Assembly (NCBI RefSeq): GCF_019355395.1
Contig: NZ_CP048829.1
Coordinates: forward strand, 2,893,001 to 2,957,000
Direction: 5' to 3'
DNA length: 64,000 nucleotides
Origin: Chordicoccus furentiruminis
GTDB lineage: Bacteria > Bacillota > Clostridia > Lachnospirales > Lachnospiraceae
Shown here: positions 186 to 56,437 of the stretch, in pieces
How positions within the stretch are numbered: position 1 is the first letter of the stretch
Layout of the letters: each line of letters opens with the position of its first letter
Position numbers and translations under genes: made by a program
The notes under the pieces: generated by a model
Seen by the model: only the letters and a program-made list of their open reading frames with translations
Database searches by the model: none
What the model was told of the DNA's origin: nothing

Positions 186-1023
186 GATACGCGGCGACTT
201 CGTCCACGGGCATCTCCCGCCCGGTCCAGATATGAAACGATGCGGCACCCTGACCGATCAGCATGGACAGGCCGTTCGAGCAGCGGCAGCCTGCGAAACG
301 GGCCTGGGTGAGCAGCGGCGTGCATGCCGGATGATAGATGATGTCGTAGACGAACAGCCCGGGATGAAGATACGTACTATCCGGAATCAGAGATTCTTCC
401 GGGTGCGGACTGCCGGCCATCCCGACATTGGTTCCGTTGGCCAGCACCGTGCTTCCGCCAAGGTCGGCCCGAAGCTGTTCTGGATCATGATAGGAGCGGA
501 TGCGGATGACAGTGCGGCTGTGGGGCGCAAGTTTTTCCGCGATTTCCTCCACATGCTGGCGTGAGGACGGACGGTTGCAGTAGACCGCGATCTCGCCCGC
601 GCCGTCAAGGGCAGCCTGAATGAGAATCGCACTGGCCGCTCCGCCGCTTCCAAGAAGCGTCAGTTTCCGGCCGTTCAGACGGATTCCATATTGCCCGAGC
701 GCGCTGAGAAAACCGATTCCGTCAGTTGTGTAACCGTAAAGGCGTCCGTTGTCATTCTTCACGGTGTTGACAGAACCGCCGATCCGGGAGGCGGTGGAGA
801 GCTCGTCGCAAAGAGAGAGCATGGCCTGCTTGTCCGGCATCGTCACGTTCCAGCCGGACGCGCCGCGGCTCTTCAGCCATTCGACAGCATCCGGAACCTC
901 GTCTGCCTGAGCCTCGTGCAGTGCATATATAGCATCGATACCGAGACGGCGGAAGGTGTAGTTCATCATCGCGGGTGAAGAAGAGTGCGCGATCGGGCTT
1001 CCGATCAGATAATAGGACTGCAT
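151..1023 (-). CDS. aroE: shikimate dehydrogenase AroE
   Basis: 290 residues, normal length for AroE. It performs the NADPH-dependent reduction of 3-dehydroshikimate to shikimate in the cytoplasm. Visible family motifs: the shikimate-binding segment GSPIAHSSSP (residues 8-17), NVTMPDK with catalytic Lys65, the Asn in SVNT (86), YTTDGIGF with catalytic Asp101, and the nucleotide-binding loop GSGGAA (125-130). The start is supported by a GGAGG on the minus strand about 8 nt upstream of the ATG. It lies divergent from the aroD-aroK fusion and convergent with the kinase-like fragment, so three shikimate-pathway genes cluster here. Confidence 0.95.
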   Translation of the reverse strand: MQSYYLIGSPIAHSSSPAMMNYTFRRLGIDAIYALHEAQADEVPDAVEWLKSRGASGWNVTMPDKQAMLSLCDELSTASRIGGSVNTVKNDNGRLYGYTTDGIGFLSALGQYGIRLNGRKLTLLGSGGAASAILIQAALDGAGEIAVYCNRPSSRQHVEEIAEKLAPHSRTVIRIRSYHDPEQLRADLGGSTVLANGTNVGMAGSPHPEESLIPDSTYLHPGLFVYDIIYHPACTPLLTQARFAGCRCSNGLSMLIGQGAASFHIWTGREMPVDEVAAYLSSPTPSPDLL

Positions 1024-1134
1024 GACATTTGCCTCCGATCTGTCAGGATTGCTTCATTTTAGCACAGCGAAGCGAAAGGCGGAAGACGGGGAATGTGTTT
1101 CACGACAGGCGCTGAAACAGGCAGACAAACACGG

Positions 1135-1163
1135 TTGACAGGTCCCGGCCGGCTGCATACAGA
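1135..1163 (+). promoter_or_regulatory. possible promoter of aroD-aroK
   Basis: TTGACA (1135-1140), a 17-bp spacer, then TACAGA (1158-1163), 28 bp before the preferred aroD-aroK start. The -35 is perfect but the -10 matches consensus at only three positions, so this is tentative. Confidence 0.4.
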
Positions 1164-1190
1164 ACGGCGGGACAGGAAATGAGGGAAGAG

Positions 1191-2480
1191 ATGCGGCAGA
1201 TTATCGTACGGGGGACAGCACTTGGAGATGGTATTCCGAAGACAGCCGTGCCGCTGATGGCGGAAGATGAGGCGGGATGCCTTACAGATGCGGCTGAAGC
1301 GATCCGCGCGGGAAGTGAAATACTGGAGCTTCGCGCGGATGCGCTGAGAGCGGACTTGTGTCGTGCCCCGAAGCTTCATGAGCTCCTGTGCTCTCTCCGA
1401 AAGACAGCCGGGGATGTACCGGTTCTGTTTACGTTCCGGACGAAAGCGGAGGGAGGAAGGCGTGAGGCGGATGACGCGGAATATGCCGGTATTGTCCGGG
1501 ACGCGCTGAACTCACGGATGGTCGATCTGATCGACATCGAGCAGGAACGTACGGCGTCGGCGGATCTTCTTGAGGAGGCGCATGCGGTTTCTGTACCGGC
1601 GGTTCTTTCCTTTCATGACTTCCGGCAAACACCTCCGCTTTCCGCTCTCGAGGAGCGGCTTGAAGCGATGAAAGACGCCGGAGCGGATCTGGCGAAGATT
1701 GCCGTCACGCCGAGAGATCATCTGGATCCTTCGCGCGTGCTCGCCGCGTCCGCCTGGGCGAAACAGCATCTGGGTCTGCCTTTCGTGCTGATCTCGATGG
1801 GAGAGATCGGACGGATTACCAGGCTTTCCGCGGCCTTTTTTGGAAGTGTCTTTACCTTCGGATGCCTTCCGGGCCGGGACAGCGCGCCGGGACAGATGGA
1901 GGTTCCGGCACTTCGTGCGAAAATGAGGGAAGCGGCCGGGGCAAAGCGGAAAGAAGGGGCGATTTTCCTGAACGGCTTCATGGGCTCCGGGAAGACGACG
2001 GTCGGAGCGGCGCTCGCCGCGAAAACCGGACGGCCGTTCATTGACCTTGACCAGCGGATCGAGGAGAGGGAAGGCTGCGCGGTCAGCCGGATCTTTGAGA
2101 CGAAGGGCCAGCCGTACTTCCGGGATCTCGAGACTCGGGAAATCGCCGAACTGTACCATGAGGGACCGGCTGTGGTATCCTGCGGCGGCGGAGCGGTTCT
2201 CCGGACGGAGAATACGGATCTGATGCGCTGCTTAGGACGGATCGTCCTGCTCCGCGCAAAGCCGGAGACCGTGCTTGAGCGGCTTACCGGCGAGGCTGCT
2301 AACAGGCCGAACATCCGGGGGAGAATGACACGGGACGGGATCCGCCGCCTGATGGAAGAAAGAAAGGCACGCTATGAAGAGGCGGCGGATCAGACGATTG
2401 ACACGGACGGAAAAACGCCGGAGCAGATTGCGGACGAGATTCTGGAAAGCGATGGATTTCTTTCTTGCACAAGGGCATGA
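1191..2480 (+). CDS. aroD-aroK: fused type I 3-dehydroquinate dehydratase / shikimate kinase
   Basis: About 429 residues carrying two shikimate-pathway enzymes in one chain. Residues 1 to about 245 are a type I dehydroquinase: ELRAD strand, the His of SFHDF (about 142) and the Schiff-base Lys of AKIAV (about 169). Residues about 255-429 are shikimate kinase: P-loop GFMGSGKTT, DLDQRIEE, FRDLETRE and the VVSCGGG loop. Together they would catalyse 3-dehydroquinate to 3-dehydroshikimate and shikimate to shikimate 3-phosphate, the steps on either side of AroE. An ATG at 1179 is also in frame, but GAGGGAAGAG sits just before the ATG at 1191, so 1191 is preferred. A second kinase-like tail at the window start suggests kinase redundancy. 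Confidence 0.92.
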   Translation: MRQIIVRGTALGDGIPKTAVPLMAEDEAGCLTDAAEAIRAGSEILELRADALRADLCRAPKLHELLCSLRKTAGDVPVLFTFRTKAEGGRREADDAEYAGIVRDALNSRMVDLIDIEQERTASADLLEEAHAVSVPAVLSFHDFRQTPPLSALEERLEAMKDAGADLAKIAVTPRDHLDPSRVLAASAWAKQHLGLPFVLISMGEIGRITRLSAAFFGSVFTFGCLPGRDSAPGQMEVPALRAKMREAAGAKRKEGAIFLNGFMGSGKTTVGAALAAKTGRPFIDLDQRIEEREGCAVSRIFETKGQPYFRDLETREIAELYHEGPAVVSCGGGAVLRTENTDLMRCLGRIVLLRAKPETVLERLTGEAANRPNIRGRMTRDGIRRLMEERKARYEEAADQTIDTDGKTPEQIADEILESDGFLSCTRA

Positions 2481-2493
2481 TTTACGCTAAAAT
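2465..2493 (+). promoter_or_regulatory. promoter of efp
   Basis: TTGCAC (2465-2470), 17-bp spacer, TAAAAT (2488-2493). It overlaps the last codons of aroD-aroK and lies about 30 bp before efp, so efp is probably transcribed on its own as well as by read-through. Confidence 0.55.
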
Positions 2494-2524
2494 GAAGTGT
2501 ACATTTCAAGGAGGACAGTGATTT

Positions 2525-3082
2525 ATGATTTCCGCAGGCGATTTTAAAAACGGTTTGACTCTGGAAATTGACGGTCAGGTGATGCAGATCCTGGAATTTC
2601 AGCATGTGAAACCAGGTAAGGGCGCAGCGTTTGTCCGTACAAAGATGAAGAATGTGATTAACGGAGGCGTTGTCGAGAAAACCTTCCGCCCTACCGAGAA
2701 ATTCCCGGCGGCGAGGATTGACCGCAAGAATTACCAGTACCTGTATAACGACGGCGATCTTTACTATTTCATGGATCCCGAGAGCTTCGAGCAGATCATG
2801 ATCAACAAGGATACGATCGGCGACAGCATGAAATTCGTCAAGGAAAATGACGAAGTGAAGGTGGATTCCTACAACGGGAATGTCTTTGCGATCGAGCCTC
2901 CGCTGTTTGTGGAACTGGAAATTACTGATACAGAGCCCGGATTTGCGGGCAATACGGCTCAGGGCGCCAACAAGCCGGCAACGGTTGAGACGGGTGCCTC
3001 GATTCAGGTGCCGCTGTTCGTCAATATCGGCGATAAGGTCAAGATTGACACAAGAACAGGCGAGTATCTTTCAAGAGTCTGA
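2525..3082 (+). CDS. efp: elongation factor P
   Basis: 185 residues, the standard length. EF-P binds the ribosome between the P and E sites and relieves stalling at polyproline. The protein begins [10 protein letters not shown] and has the tip loop [10 protein letters not shown] with Lys32 at the position that is modified in many bacteria, followed by three beta-barrel domains ending in the family C-terminus [13 protein letters not shown] strong Shine-Dalgarno AAGGAGG lies 9 nt upstream. No EF-P modification gene is seen nearby. A hairpin terminator follows directly. Confidence 0.97.
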
Positions 3083-51022: not shown

Positions 51023-52180
51023 ATGAGCAGTAAGCTGATAAAACATAACGATTCCTATCGGAGTTGGATTCAGGAAGTCAGTAAACGGTTCCGCCAGAGC
51101 CAAATCAGGGCAGCTATGAAGGTGAATGATGAAATGCTGCGGTTTTACTGGTCGATTGGCAGGGACATTTCCGCAATGCACCTGGATGCGGAGTATGGTG
51201 ATGGATTTTACCAGGCGGTCAGTACCGACTTGCAGGATGTTTTTCCGGAGGTACATTCATTTTCTGTTACGAACCTGAAATACATGAAGTATTTTTATGA
51301 GCTGTATCCGAATGCACAGAATCGTCCGTGGCTTACGGAGGGATACGAAGCTTTCTCAAATCGTCAGCAGCTTGTTGACGATTTGAGAAGTGCAGAAAAC
51401 CGTCAGCGGGTTGTTGACGATTTGGGTGAGGAAATCATCTTCTATATTCCGTGGGGACATCATATATTTCTGCTCGGCAAATGCAGGGATGATCATGACA
51501 AGGCCTTGTTCTATGTCTGCAAGACCATCGAAAACAACTGGTCAAGAGCCGTCTTGATGAACATTTTTGATACTGCTCTGTATGAACGCCAGGGGAAGGC
51601 TGTTACGAACTTCGCCCTTACATTACCTGCTGTGCAGAGCGACCTGGCGCAGGCCATAACCCGCGATCCCTATAACTTTGATTTCCTTACGATTCGTGAG
51701 AGATACGATGAAAAAGAACTTAAAGCGGCTCTCATGGACAAAGCCGAAAACTTTCTAATGGAGCTTGGCACAGGTTTTGCCTATATGGGCCGTGAAGTCC
51801 GGATCATGGTCGGCGATAAAGAGAAATTCCTTGATATGCTCTTTTATAATACGCAACAGCATTGTTATGTTGTAGTTGAAGTGAAGGCCGTTGATTTTGA
51901 TTCCTCATTCGCCGGCCAGTTGGGGACATATGTGGTGGCGGTGAACCATCAGCGTAAAACGGCGGTTGACAATCCAACAATCGGCTTGCTGATCTGTAAA
52001 GGGATGGATCGTGTCGAGGCACAGTATGCGCTTGAATCCACCAGTCAGCCTTTGGGAGTGTCCAGCTATGAATTGTCCAAACTGATTCCCGAAAAATTCA
52101 AAGGCAGCCTGCCGACGATAGAAGAAATTGAAGCGGAGTTTGCCGACCCGGAAGACGGACAGAATATCCCTAAAGGCTAA
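51023..52180 (+). CDS. DUF1016 (YhcG-type) PD-(D/E)XK nuclease-domain protein
   Basis: 385 residues. The N-terminal DUF1016_N part (RQSQIRAAMKVNDEMLRFYWSIG, YGDGFYQAVSTDLQDVFPE) is followed by a PD-(D/E)XK nuclease domain with FLDMLFYNTQQHCYVVVEVK. These proteins occur in mobile and defence islands. A 13-residue in-frame near-repeat (NRQQLVDDL.../NRQRVVDDL) is encoded at 51362 and 51401. The stop is followed within 6 bp by a truncated foreign gene, so the locus was rearranged. Confidence 0.85.
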   Translation: MSSKLIKHNDSYRSWIQEVSKRFRQSQIRAAMKVNDEMLRFYWSIGRDISAMHLDAEYGDGFYQAVSTDLQDVFPEVHSFSVTNLKYMKYFYELYPNAQNRPWLTEGYEAFSNRQQLVDDLRSAENRQRVVDDLGEEIIFYIPWGHHIFLLGKCRDDHDKALFYVCKTIENNWSRAVLMNIFDTALYERQGKAVTNFALTLPAVQSDLAQAITRDPYNFDFLTIRERYDEKELKAALMDKAENFLMELGTGFAYMGREVRIMVGDKEKFLDMLFYNTQQHCYVVVEVKAVDFDSSFAGQLGTYVVAVNHQRKTAVDNPTIGLLICKGMDRVEAQYALESTSQPLGVSSYELSKLIPEKFKGSLPTIEEIEAEFADPEDGQNIPKG

Positions 52181-53465: not shown

Positions 53466-53532
53466 GCTGATTTAATAGTCTTTTTTACAATGATATATAA
53501 GGTTGGCCGTGTGCCAACTTATGAGGGATAGG

Positions 53533-55659
53533 ATGAAAATAGATCTTCATTGTCACACAAAAGCCATCAAAAAGGGTGATGGACGAGGGAGAAATGTAAC
53601 ACCTGAGCTATTTAAAACTAAAATTGAAAATGCAGACATTAAAATTGTTGCAATCACAAACCACAACGCATTTGATCTTGAGCAATATAAAAATTTGATG
53701 GAAGCTGTCATTAATACGTGTCAAGTTTGGCCTGGCGTAGAGATTGATGTCTTGGAGCCAGGATCTAAGAGGTGGCACTTGATTGTTGTTGTAAATCCAA
53801 AAGAAGCGTCTGATTTTTCTGCAAGTGTTGATAATCTTTTCAGGGGAGACAATTTGAATGATTGTACACATACTCTTGATGAAATACATGCTGCGTTCAA
53901 GAATCATGATGCTATTTACATCGCACATTTTCATCAAAAGAAACCGGCAATTCCTTTAGAAGATGCAGAAAAGTTGGATGAAATAATCCAAGACCCGCAT
54001 AGGGTATTCAAAGAAACTGCAAATGAAAGCTCCATGAGCGTTTTTGTGAACTATAGATATAATGTGCTGGTCGGAAGTGATGTTAAAGACTGGAATCATT
54101 ATGAAGACTGTAGTTTCTCTGAATTAAAACTCCCCGTTGACAGTTTTGAACAGTTTTGCTTATTGTCGAAAAGGGATGAAACTGTTGTTCAGACTTTACT
54201 GAATAAGAAGGATAGCAAAAATTTAATTGCCCATCCAGCTGTGGGAGTGGATCTACCGATTCGAATCTATGCAGATATGAATGTTATCTTTGGCCAGAAG
54301 GGAACCGGTAAAACCGAAATAGTCAGTAGTTTATTCGAAAGTATGAGGGCAAATGGATATAAATGTGTAAGGTATGTTGCATCTGAGAGAGATGATGATT
54401 TTAAAGCACTTCTGCGTATTTCTGGTATAGAACCAGAGCTGTCTGTAATGGGGGTAAGGGATTGCGAAAACGAGTTTAATGATATTAGGAATTGGGTAGA
54501 TGCGAGTCCGACCCATTTTAATAATTATCTGAACTGGAAGAAAACGGACGGCAATAATGCAAACAAATCACGAATGCGAATAACAAGAGCATCTGCCTTA
54601 CCGAGTATAGAAAATGTAAAAGAAGAGCTTCATAAGGCTGATAAAGAGACGATAGACAATATCTTCCCGAGTATACTTAACATACAGCTTGAAGAATATT
54701 TGAGCCAGGAAGAGAGTGATCAATTAAGAGCATTATTAAGAAGACTAAAGGAAAGTATCTACCAGCATCGCTTTGAGGATTTAATTGCAGAGCAAGTGAT
54801 TCATCTTGTGAATTATACCTTAAACACAATAAAGGAAATTGCTGACAAAAGTACAAATTCAGTTTCTAAGCCATCAACTACAGGGTTGACAGGTTTTGTG
54901 GAAGGCCGATTAAAACTGCTTAAGATCGTTAATACTATACTGAGGGCGTTGTCTGTTGATGAGTCTAATAGTCGGGAAAAAGTAGGAACTCTGGATGAAA
55001 AGGGAGACATATATATCAATACTAAATTTCGGATGCTCTGTGCAGAATCCCGAAAGGAGGAATTTAGAATTGGCATACGAAAACTGCGTGAGGTAAAAGC
55101 AATCCTTGAGTATATCAAACAGAATATATTTAATGTTGACATAGCAGACCAGGTGCAAAACCTCAATGATATTTGTTCGGAAGACAATATTACCTCTGTT
55201 TTGCCCTTTGTTGGAAGATCGAAGCAAATTATAAACAATACCGGGGAATTATACTCGCCTTCAAATGGCGAAAAGGGGATGTTGCTTCTTCAGAGAGCAA
55301 TAATGGAGGATGCGGATGCGTATTTCCTGGATGAACCTGAATTAGGTATGGGGAACTCTTATATAGATACAACGATCCGACCAATACTTGTGAATTTATC
55401 AAAACGACACAAGTTCGTTGTTGTGGCGACCCATAATGCTAATATCGGTGTAAGAACACTTCCGTATACATCAATATATCGCACGCACAGCAATGGAATA
55501 TATACAACGTACATAGGTAATCCGTTTTCAGACCGATTAGTCAATATAAATGATGAGAATGACGTGTTAAATTGGGCTGAAGAAAGCTTAAAATCTCTTG
55601 AAGGTAGCCGGGATGCCTTTTATGAAAGGAAGGATATCTATGAATCAAATAATTCTTGA
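53533..55659 (+). CDS. PHP-domain/ABC-type ATPase fusion (TrlF-like), candidate defence protein
   Basis: 708 residues from ATG 53533 (GAGGGATAGG upstream; ATG 53521 also in frame). The PHP phosphoesterase part has DLHCHT (His6, His8), TNHN (42-45), HFH (132-134) and Asp183. The ATPase part has Walker A GQKGTGKT (254-261), a signature-like SNGEKGMLLL, Walker B FLDEPE (to about 603) and VVATHNANIG. A charged helical segment separates them. PHP-ATPase fusions of this kind are labelled TrlF and occur in defence islands. Strikingly AT-rich against its neighbours. Its 3' end overlaps a small gene by 20 bp. A nuclease role is inference. Confidence 0.82.
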   Translation: MKIDLHCHTKAIKKGDGRGRNVTPELFKTKIENADIKIVAITNHNAFDLEQYKNLMEAVINTCQVWPGVEIDVLEPGSKRWHLIVVVNPKEASDFSASVDNLFRGDNLNDCTHTLDEIHAAFKNHDAIYIAHFHQKKPAIPLEDAEKLDEIIQDPHRVFKETANESSMSVFVNYRYNVLVGSDVKDWNHYEDCSFSELKLPVDSFEQFCLLSKRDETVVQTLLNKKDSKNLIAHPAVGVDLPIRIYADMNVIFGQKGTGKTEIVSSLFESMRANGYKCVRYVASERDDDFKALLRISGIEPELSVMGVRDCENEFNDIRNWVDASPTHFNNYLNWKKTDGNNANKSRMRITRASALPSIENVKEELHKADKETIDNIFPSILNIQLEEYLSQEESDQLRALLRRLKESIYQHRFEDLIAEQVIHLVNYTLNTIKEIADKSTNSVSKPSTTGLTGFVEGRLKLLKIVNTILRALSVDESNSREKVGTLDEKGDIYINTKFRMLCAESRKEEFRIGIRKLREVKAILEYIKQNIFNVDIADQVQNLNDICSEDNITSVLPFVGRSKQIINNTGELYSPSNGEKGMLLLQRAIMEDADAYFLDEPELGMGNSYIDTTIRPILVNLSKRHKFVVVATHNANIGVRTLPYTSIYRTHSNGIYTTYIGNPFSDRLVNINDENDVLNWAEESLKSLEGSRDAFYERKDIYESNNS

Positions 55660-55948
55660 AGTTAAACTGTTTGCCGAGAATACCGATGATGATATTCTTT
55701 CTTTTGCATTCGAAGATGATGAGTGTCGAGTGAATTTGAATAGTGATTCATGCCAGGGAGAATTGAAAGAGGTCTTTTCAAAACTTGTCAAACTATGTCT
55801 TCATAATGATGTAACCCTTGAAATGAAAATAGAAGAAGGTTATAGTCGAGGCTTATATAAGGACGTATGTTCTGAATATGTTATAGAACTTCAGCGTGAA
55901 CTTGATAGTATTAAAGAAAGAATTCGTCGAGAAGTTTCTGCAGAATAA
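55640..55948 (+). CDS. small acidic partner of the PHP-ATPase
   Basis: 102 residues from ATG 55640 (GGAAGG upstream), starting 20 bp inside the ATPase gene and so translationally coupled. An N-terminal beta-like half (NQIILEVKLFAENTDDDILS) is followed by a helical C-terminus (YVIELQRELDSIKERIRREV). No family recognised. Same low GC as the ATPase, so the pair was probably acquired together. It may regulate or target the ATPase. Confidence 0.7.
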   Translation: MNQIILEVKLFAENTDDDILSFAFEDDECRVNLNSDSCQGELKEVFSKLVKLCLHNDVTLEMKIEEGYSRGLYKDVCSEYVIELQRELDSIKERIRREVSAE

Positions 55949-55981
55949 ATATTGAAACACGGATCAAGAAATGGAGAAAAA

Positions 55982-56437
55982 ATGTTAGAGATTGGAACCA
56001 AAGCTCCGGCATTTACCCTGCCGGACCAGAACGGAGAAATGAGAAGCCTTGCAGATTATCAGGGTCAGAAGGTAATTCTGTATTTTTACCCAAAGGACAT
56101 GACTGCCGGCTGCACGAAGCAGGCCTGTGCGTTCGGAGATCTGTATCCACAGTTCCGGGAGAAAGGCGCGGTCGTTCTTGGCGTAAGCAAGGACAGCATA
56201 GCATCCCACAAGAAATTTGAGGAAAAATACGGCCTGCCCTTCACACTTCTTTCTGATCCGGAGAAGGAAGTGATTCAGGCTTACGATGTCTGGAAGGAGA
56301 AGAAGAACTACGGCAAGGTCAGCATGGGTGTTGTCCGGACGACCTACCTGATTGATGAGAACGGTATTATCGTAAAGGCTTTTGATAAGGTTAAGGCAGC
56401 TGATAATCCGGCCCTGATGCTCGGAGAACTGGAATGA
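55982..56437 (+). CDS. bcp: thioredoxin-dependent thiol peroxidase (Bcp)
   Basis: 151 residues from ATG 55982. The peroxiredoxin active site is YPKDMTAGCTKQACAF with peroxidatic Cys and a nearby resolving Cys five residues on, as in BCP/PrxQ. Reduces peroxides at the expense of thioredoxin. It overlaps yaaA as ATGA, so the two oxidative-stress genes are coupled. Confidence 0.95.
   Translation: MLEIGTKAPAFTLPDQNGEMRSLADYQGQKVILYFYPKDMTAGCTKQACAFGDLYPQFREKGAVVLGVSKDSIASHKKFEEKYGLPFTLLSDPEKEVIQAYDVWKEKKNYGKVSMGVVRTTYLIDENGIIVKAFDKVKAADNPALMLGELE

Follow-up and report, generated by a model that had tools for sequence, protein, structure and literature searches.

The closest described relatives of the two-gene locus analysed here are Ppl, TrlF, the PARIS system and PDC-M49, a phage-defence candidate in PADLOC. 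E. coli Ppl is described in a 2026 review as a single-gene PHP 3′-5′ ssDNA exonuclease; NTPs that occupy its PHP domain as well as its NTPase domain keep it inactive, and nucleotide depletion together with 3′-OH ends releases it (PMC12904381). PADLOC candidates of the PDC-M49 kind are mostly still unvalidated, according to one report (PMC12988326), and we found no paper on PDC-M49, nor on any PHP-ATPase accompanied by a small protein, in the PMC literature searched, with bioRxiv and most subscription papers outside that search. The name TrlF possibly goes back to a temperature-restriction locus of Photorhabdus, which is a guess, and the accessible part of PMC7554251 mentions neither PHP nor ATPase.

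The locus lies in the window, by which we mean the whole stretch of 64,000 nucleotides of DNA that was analysed, and consists of two genes, A and B (Table 1). The ATG of B is placed 20 bases ahead of the last base of the A stop codon, and an earlier note on this DNA had given the coordinates, the lengths (708 and 102 aa) and the resulting 20 bp overlap exactly. The note had also called the cassette far more AT-rich than its neighbours; indeed, GC content is 0.376 in A, 0.333 in B and 0.372 in A and B together, as against 0.459 and 0.481 in the flanks and 0.498 in the window, and the cassette value is undercut by one of 616 segments of the same length. In the window's assembly, an A of this type occurs once. 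The two arms of the inverted repeat in its leader carry paired changes at a near-identical locus (L068, 99%), which weakly suggests, within a comparison of two or three sequences, that a hairpin has been kept upstream of A. The neighbouring genes, which had been read as remnants, prove to be a mixture. The gene at 51023-52180 is a full-length DUF1016/YhcG PD-(D/E)xK nuclease (PADLOC PDC-S02, E 5.8e-149), and the RHH gene near the cassette has a weak, sub-threshold Pfam match. Adjoining the nuclease gene, a DUF6551 gene covering positions 55-218 of a 242-position profile and a C-terminal piece of PDC-S68 covering positions 1083-1199 of 1202 have the appearance of remnants, judged by profile coverage.

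Table 1. Positions of the two genes and associated elements in the window
Feature	Position	Strand	Description	Basis
Gene A	53533..55659	+	708 aa; PHP nuclease-type domain fused to ABC/SMC-like ATPase head	Translation
Gene B	55640..55948	+	102 aa acidic partner, net charge -11	Translation
B ribosome-binding sequence GAAAGGAAGG	55624-55633	+	Within the C-terminal codons of A (E698 R699 ... Y703)	
B start ATG	55640-55642	+	Within the C-terminal codons of A	
Inverted repeat GTTGGC-CGTGT-GCCAAC	53502..53518	+	Leader just 5′ of A	Sequence scan

In the AlphaFold2 model of A, built from 60 aligned sequences (mean pLDDT 89.8), residues from about 1 to 219 form a PHP domain and residues from about 227 to 690 an ABC/SMC-like head, which is split by a helical insertion at about residues 312-473. 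A is, on this predicted model, a PHP-fold protein. The best solved match of residues 1-219 in VIA-align is Endonuclease Q (Z 15.7, rmsd 3.3, 204 residues of the predicted model aligned), followed at Z 14.2 by RNase AM and by the Pol III alpha PHP domain; DNA/RNA nucleases thus lead the matches. Residues 227-690 match ABC ATPases at Z 13-15 in VIA-align, and the heads of JetC of Wadjet, RecN, SMC and AriA in Foldseek; by sequence, the closest solved relative of the ATPase is AriA of PARIS (E 6e-10). The ATPase motifs are a Walker A GQKGTGK (254-260), a signature S577-N-G-E580, a Walker B LDEPE (599-603) and H634, with K260 as the Walker A Lys and E601 as the catalytic Glu. The PHP motifs are H6-x-H8, H44, E70, H82, H132 and D183, which we take to be metal-ligand positions from known PHP proteins. 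Across the 60 relatives (alignment A5, which omits L120 and near-duplicates), H6, H8, D183, G254, G259, K260, S577, G579, E580, D600, E601 and H634 are kept in all, and H44, E70, H82 and H132 in 59 each. The key residues of the ABC-type ATPase that the earlier note had recognised from its Walker A, signature and Walker B thus hold throughout. Its description of the PHP domain as intact stands for these seven positions and fails at one. The usual DxH motif of a PHP site ends in His; the corresponding residue of A is K185, and His occupies this position in 13 of the 60 relatives. The alignment thus indicates that the site is not fully canonical, with one usual ligand position poorly conserved, so PHP activity or metal number may differ.

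Judged by E value, window A matches the PDC-M49A models at 1.2e-33 and 3.9e-21, and all 60 relatives match PDC-M49A as well. The PDC-M49 proteins share the architecture of A at a length of about 680 as against 708 aa, and in Enterococcus, Staphylococcus, Rhizobium and Phaeobacter they have a 94-102 aa partner overlapping the end of A (8 B proteins aligned). However, window A is 22% identical to the Enterococcus A, and its motif IV, GSDVxDW in window-type proteins, reads FSD followed by other residues in the three PDC-M49 proteins aligned. On these comparisons, A is best classed as a divergent branch of the unvalidated PADLOC candidate PDC-M49. The partners differ further: none of 64 relatives of window B matches the PDC-M49B models at E 1 or less, whereas the Enterococcus B does so at E 4.6e-31, and profile-profile comparison of the two B families by hhalign finds no homology (probability 0.12%). 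As far as these searches reach, the two families have either diverged past detection or are unrelated proteins in the same slot.

The assignment of A to the TrlF type, which the earlier note had made, is rejected. With the TrlF model NF045780, window A reaches 60.7 bits, over residues 2-260 only, where the cut-off is 350, and B is absent at all 14 loci fetched with that model. The relation is a distant one, detected for 59 of the 60 A relatives; both types combine PHP with an ABC ATPase and share a C-terminal tail of the LEGGxxAFxxRxxxY type, but the long open frames of TrlF, five of them here, span 871-1000 codons and Walker B is DQPE in the three TrlF proteins aligned, in contrast to DEPE in A. 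Two further open frames were seen in these searches. One, of 802 codons (L246, 1480-3885), lies between TrlF and window-type A, with 75 bits to the A profile and no B nearby; the other, of 1192 codons, lies in the window's genome (G000:C1:3249070-3252516) and has ATPase similarity to the TrlF model. Three TrlF proteins match the Ppl model of PADLOC. This model (PDLC02208, 894 positions) is matched by 5 of the 60 A relatives at E 1e-5 or better, and window A is not among its matches at E 0.1. Like Ppl, A couples a PHP domain with an NTPase domain, and a comparable gating by nucleotide is presumed; unlike the one-gene Ppl, A is shorter and has a dedicated partner. By sequence, A is a compact branch of a PHP-ABC superfamily to which TrlF, Ppl and PDC-M49A also belong.

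B belongs to no recognised family, as the note had held: we found no significant match in the PDB or PADLOC, no NCBIfam match and a single sub-threshold one in Pfam. In its family alignment (A4, 64 members), F46, Y80 and E87 are invariant, as is M1, and the proteins are acidic throughout (net charge -16 to -2, mean -9), which marks B as a real, conserved gene on the evidence of its alignment. The predicted fold is b-b-b-a-b-a (mean pLDDT 87.7). An assignment to a known fold was dropped, the best Foldseek E of 0.074 and the best VIA-align Z of 5.3 being too weak; the weak VIA-align matches are, among those listed, mostly RNase H-like (Spt6, Tex, RuvC, integrase, pantothenate kinase), with TolR besides. 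Nothing enzyme-like was found for B at the level of family or fold, nor does its alignment show a conserved catalytic pattern. A match of profile P0002 in one genome (G080, E 1e-4) was set aside as chance; it sits inside an unrelated 464-aa open frame, presumably related to glycosidases.

The presence of B follows that of A closely. A scan of a one-genome-per-species collection returned 104 A relatives; of the best 80 of 104, which were kept, 77 have a complete overlapping B, one has a B cut by the contig end (L084), and the remaining two (L077 and L146) have a truncated A and no B. At L077, where A (968-3007) has lost its C-terminal end, no remnant of B is found in six frames. B is thus present at every locus with a complete A and sufficient downstream sequence, and all 40 A-carrying genomes have exactly one B each. 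Run against 348 genomes from the phylum, the B profile gives four matches, all beside the four A genes of that sample, one of which is split over two contigs (G622). These four are the only carriers with near-full-length or split full-length matches; the PDC-M49A search as such matched 200 of the 348 genomes, nearly all through short PHP or ABC matches, as well as 10 of 14 controls. In plasmid and phage collections, window B as query finds no match, and the sole match of a Flavobacterium B is the Photobacterium copy, which lies beside A. The earlier note had allowed for two other outcomes, that B is widespread without A and that the pair is a core gene of its family; the check favoured the note's reading, as B was not found away from A and, of 42 genomes in the window's genus, just 2 carry A.

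Furthermore, A and B have diverged together. Across 65 non-redundant pairs (80 pairs reduced at 90% identity), the pairwise-identity matrices of the two proteins correlate with r 0.946, a value reached in none of 1000 permutations (highest 0.21), at mean identities of 40% for A and 32% for B. The start of B is held in register: of 68 distinct pairs, 65 have the B ATG beginning at base two of the conserved Tyr703 codon, where identical pairs are counted once and nine entries outside the strict tail pattern are set aside (the window, L068, L069, L072, L078, L141 and L142 with variant tails; L077 and L146 truncated). This fixed register argues for translational coupling. The Arg699 codon, inside the ribosome-binding sequence, is AGA or AGG in 68 of 70 cases, compared with 69% of 1352 other Arg codons of the same A genes. 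Pure start-codon selection as the cause of the conserved R699 and Y703 was ruled out, because this tail also occurs in TrlF proteins, which lack B; the tail is thus also a protein motif, independent of the overlap, and the register and the codon bias are the remaining nucleotide-level hints of selection on the B start. The plasmid copies L037 and L264 have an A that is broken into two or three frames, beside a B that is still open; at L037 (4068-6438, E. faecium plasmid pKO1), it is a window-type A that falls into three open frames.

With a probability of about one half, we read A and B as the two subunits of a single nuclease that is mobile and probably antiviral, that is gated in a Ppl-like manner and in which B is regulatory. 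A would be a PHP-type metallo-nuclease with an SMC/AriA-like ABC head, and since it has the two modules of Ppl we propose that its engaged, nucleotide-bound heads keep the PHP site idle, by analogy with Ppl. A phage-caused change, such as depletion of the nucleotide pool, exposed nucleic-acid ends or both, would switch A on. Walker B is an obstacle to a simple transfer of this scheme: with DEPE in A against DQPE in TrlF, hydrolysis may matter, and the off-state of Ppl may not carry over. B would be an obligate, non-enzymatic, acidic subunit, made by translational coupling from inside the last codons of A, and most likely docks on A, where it would hold or gate the PHP and ATPase parts until the trigger arrives. 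B is presumably not the toxic part, since nothing enzyme-like matches it and its frame remains open beside a split A. Our preference is for B as a brake rather than an activator, and a brake seems more likely than a sensor or an effector.

A sensor or activator is nevertheless the alternative that fares best, if a doubtful one. Here B would bind a phage product or nucleic acid and thereby license A, which would stay silent in the absence of B. The constant company of B and intact A fits such a role, as does the acidity of the family, which is like that of surfaces mimicking nucleic acid, and the greater divergence of B than of A, which is expected of a sensing part; however, short proteins commonly diverge faster, and the binding of a ligand by B is hypothetical.

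The distribution of the cassette bears on whether a gated nuclease of A and B is antiviral. By record title, the A relatives come from Bacillota, Bacteroidota, several classes of Proteobacteria and Desulfobacterales, as well as Nitrospinota, Ignavibacterium, Collinsella and a Saccharibacteria MAG; the Flavobacterium relative (L102) is from a named cultured strain. Seven contigs of relatives have the downstream bcp gene and no cassette, and their homology to the window sets in at 55976-56045, no more than about 100 bases past the end of B; one of the seven contigs itself starts at that boundary. A window-type pair lies on a Photobacterium plasmid (L035), beside a BsuBI/PstI restriction-modification system, and PDC-M49-type pairs are plasmid-borne in Enterococcus, Staphylococcus, Rhizobium and Phaeobacter. 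Two pairs (L148, L149) are on contigs of a viral collection, and the B of L148 is identical to that of a Bacteroidales locus (L116), so that carriage by phages or prophages is possible. Together, the pairs appear to form a mobile cassette shared by distant bacteria.

Several pairs also adjoin defence genes: AbiL (L003), an annotated phage abortive-infection gene (L036), AbiH (L259), and SIR2 with TIR (L264). Matches to PADLOC families, several models being possible per protein, number at least 170 over 67 upstream neighbours and at least 57 over 62 downstream neighbours, compared with at least 102 over 116 control genes, taken from contig starts of 20 carrier genomes, four of these starts being under 4 kb. 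The scan leaves aside 4 of 133 proteins, over 900 aa, and 11 redundant or special loci (L035, L036, L082, L083, L084, L090, L136, L142, L148, L149 and the window). Since the control regions also matched defence models, an enrichment of defence genes beside the pair is weakly shown. PHP domains also serve histidinol phosphatase and polymerases, and A and B might likewise act in housekeeping nucleotide or nucleic-acid repair rather than against viruses. We consider this improbable for genes that are patchy in the genus and scarce among the phylum genomes sampled (4 of 348), AT-rich compared with their genome neighbourhood, carried on plasmids and adjoined by defence genes. The earlier note's suggestion of a two-gene antiphage module therefore survives as the best reading, through the PDC-M49A match and the defence genes beside several relatives, and loses its TrlF label; a phage phenotype of the pair is inferred.

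A toxin-antitoxin or PARIS-like arrangement, in which an AriA-like A would restrain B as the effector, is very improbable: A does have an AriA-like ABC ATPase head, and 48 of the 60 A relatives match an AriA model, but no AriB partner of the TOPRIM/DUF4435 kind or other effector match was found for B, its alignment holds no catalytic pattern, the ATPase of A is fused instead to a nuclease-type domain of its own, and the open B beside split A genes argues against B as an A-dependent toxin.

PADLOC already has entries for the enzyme half and for the two-gene candidate PDC-M49. To this, the comparisons of sequences and profiles add a large branch whose partner the catalogue fails to recognise, a strict coupling and co-inheritance of A and B across phyla, and two mutually undetectable partner families in the same position. 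As catalogues recognise A and miss B, such loci will be scored as incomplete or not at all. More broadly, and as a tentative reading that we hold at rather less than even odds, these systems may form a wide class of two-subunit immune nucleases. The gate of the compact PHP-ABC enzyme would be an obligate small acidic subunit, which represents a new family and is translated from within the conserved tail of A; unrelated small partners in the sister PDC-M49 slot would mean that replacement of the partner is a general means of retuning the trigger. If B gates A, it would offer a small, separable handle on how the Ppl, TrlF and PDC-M49 nucleases distinguish infection from normal life.
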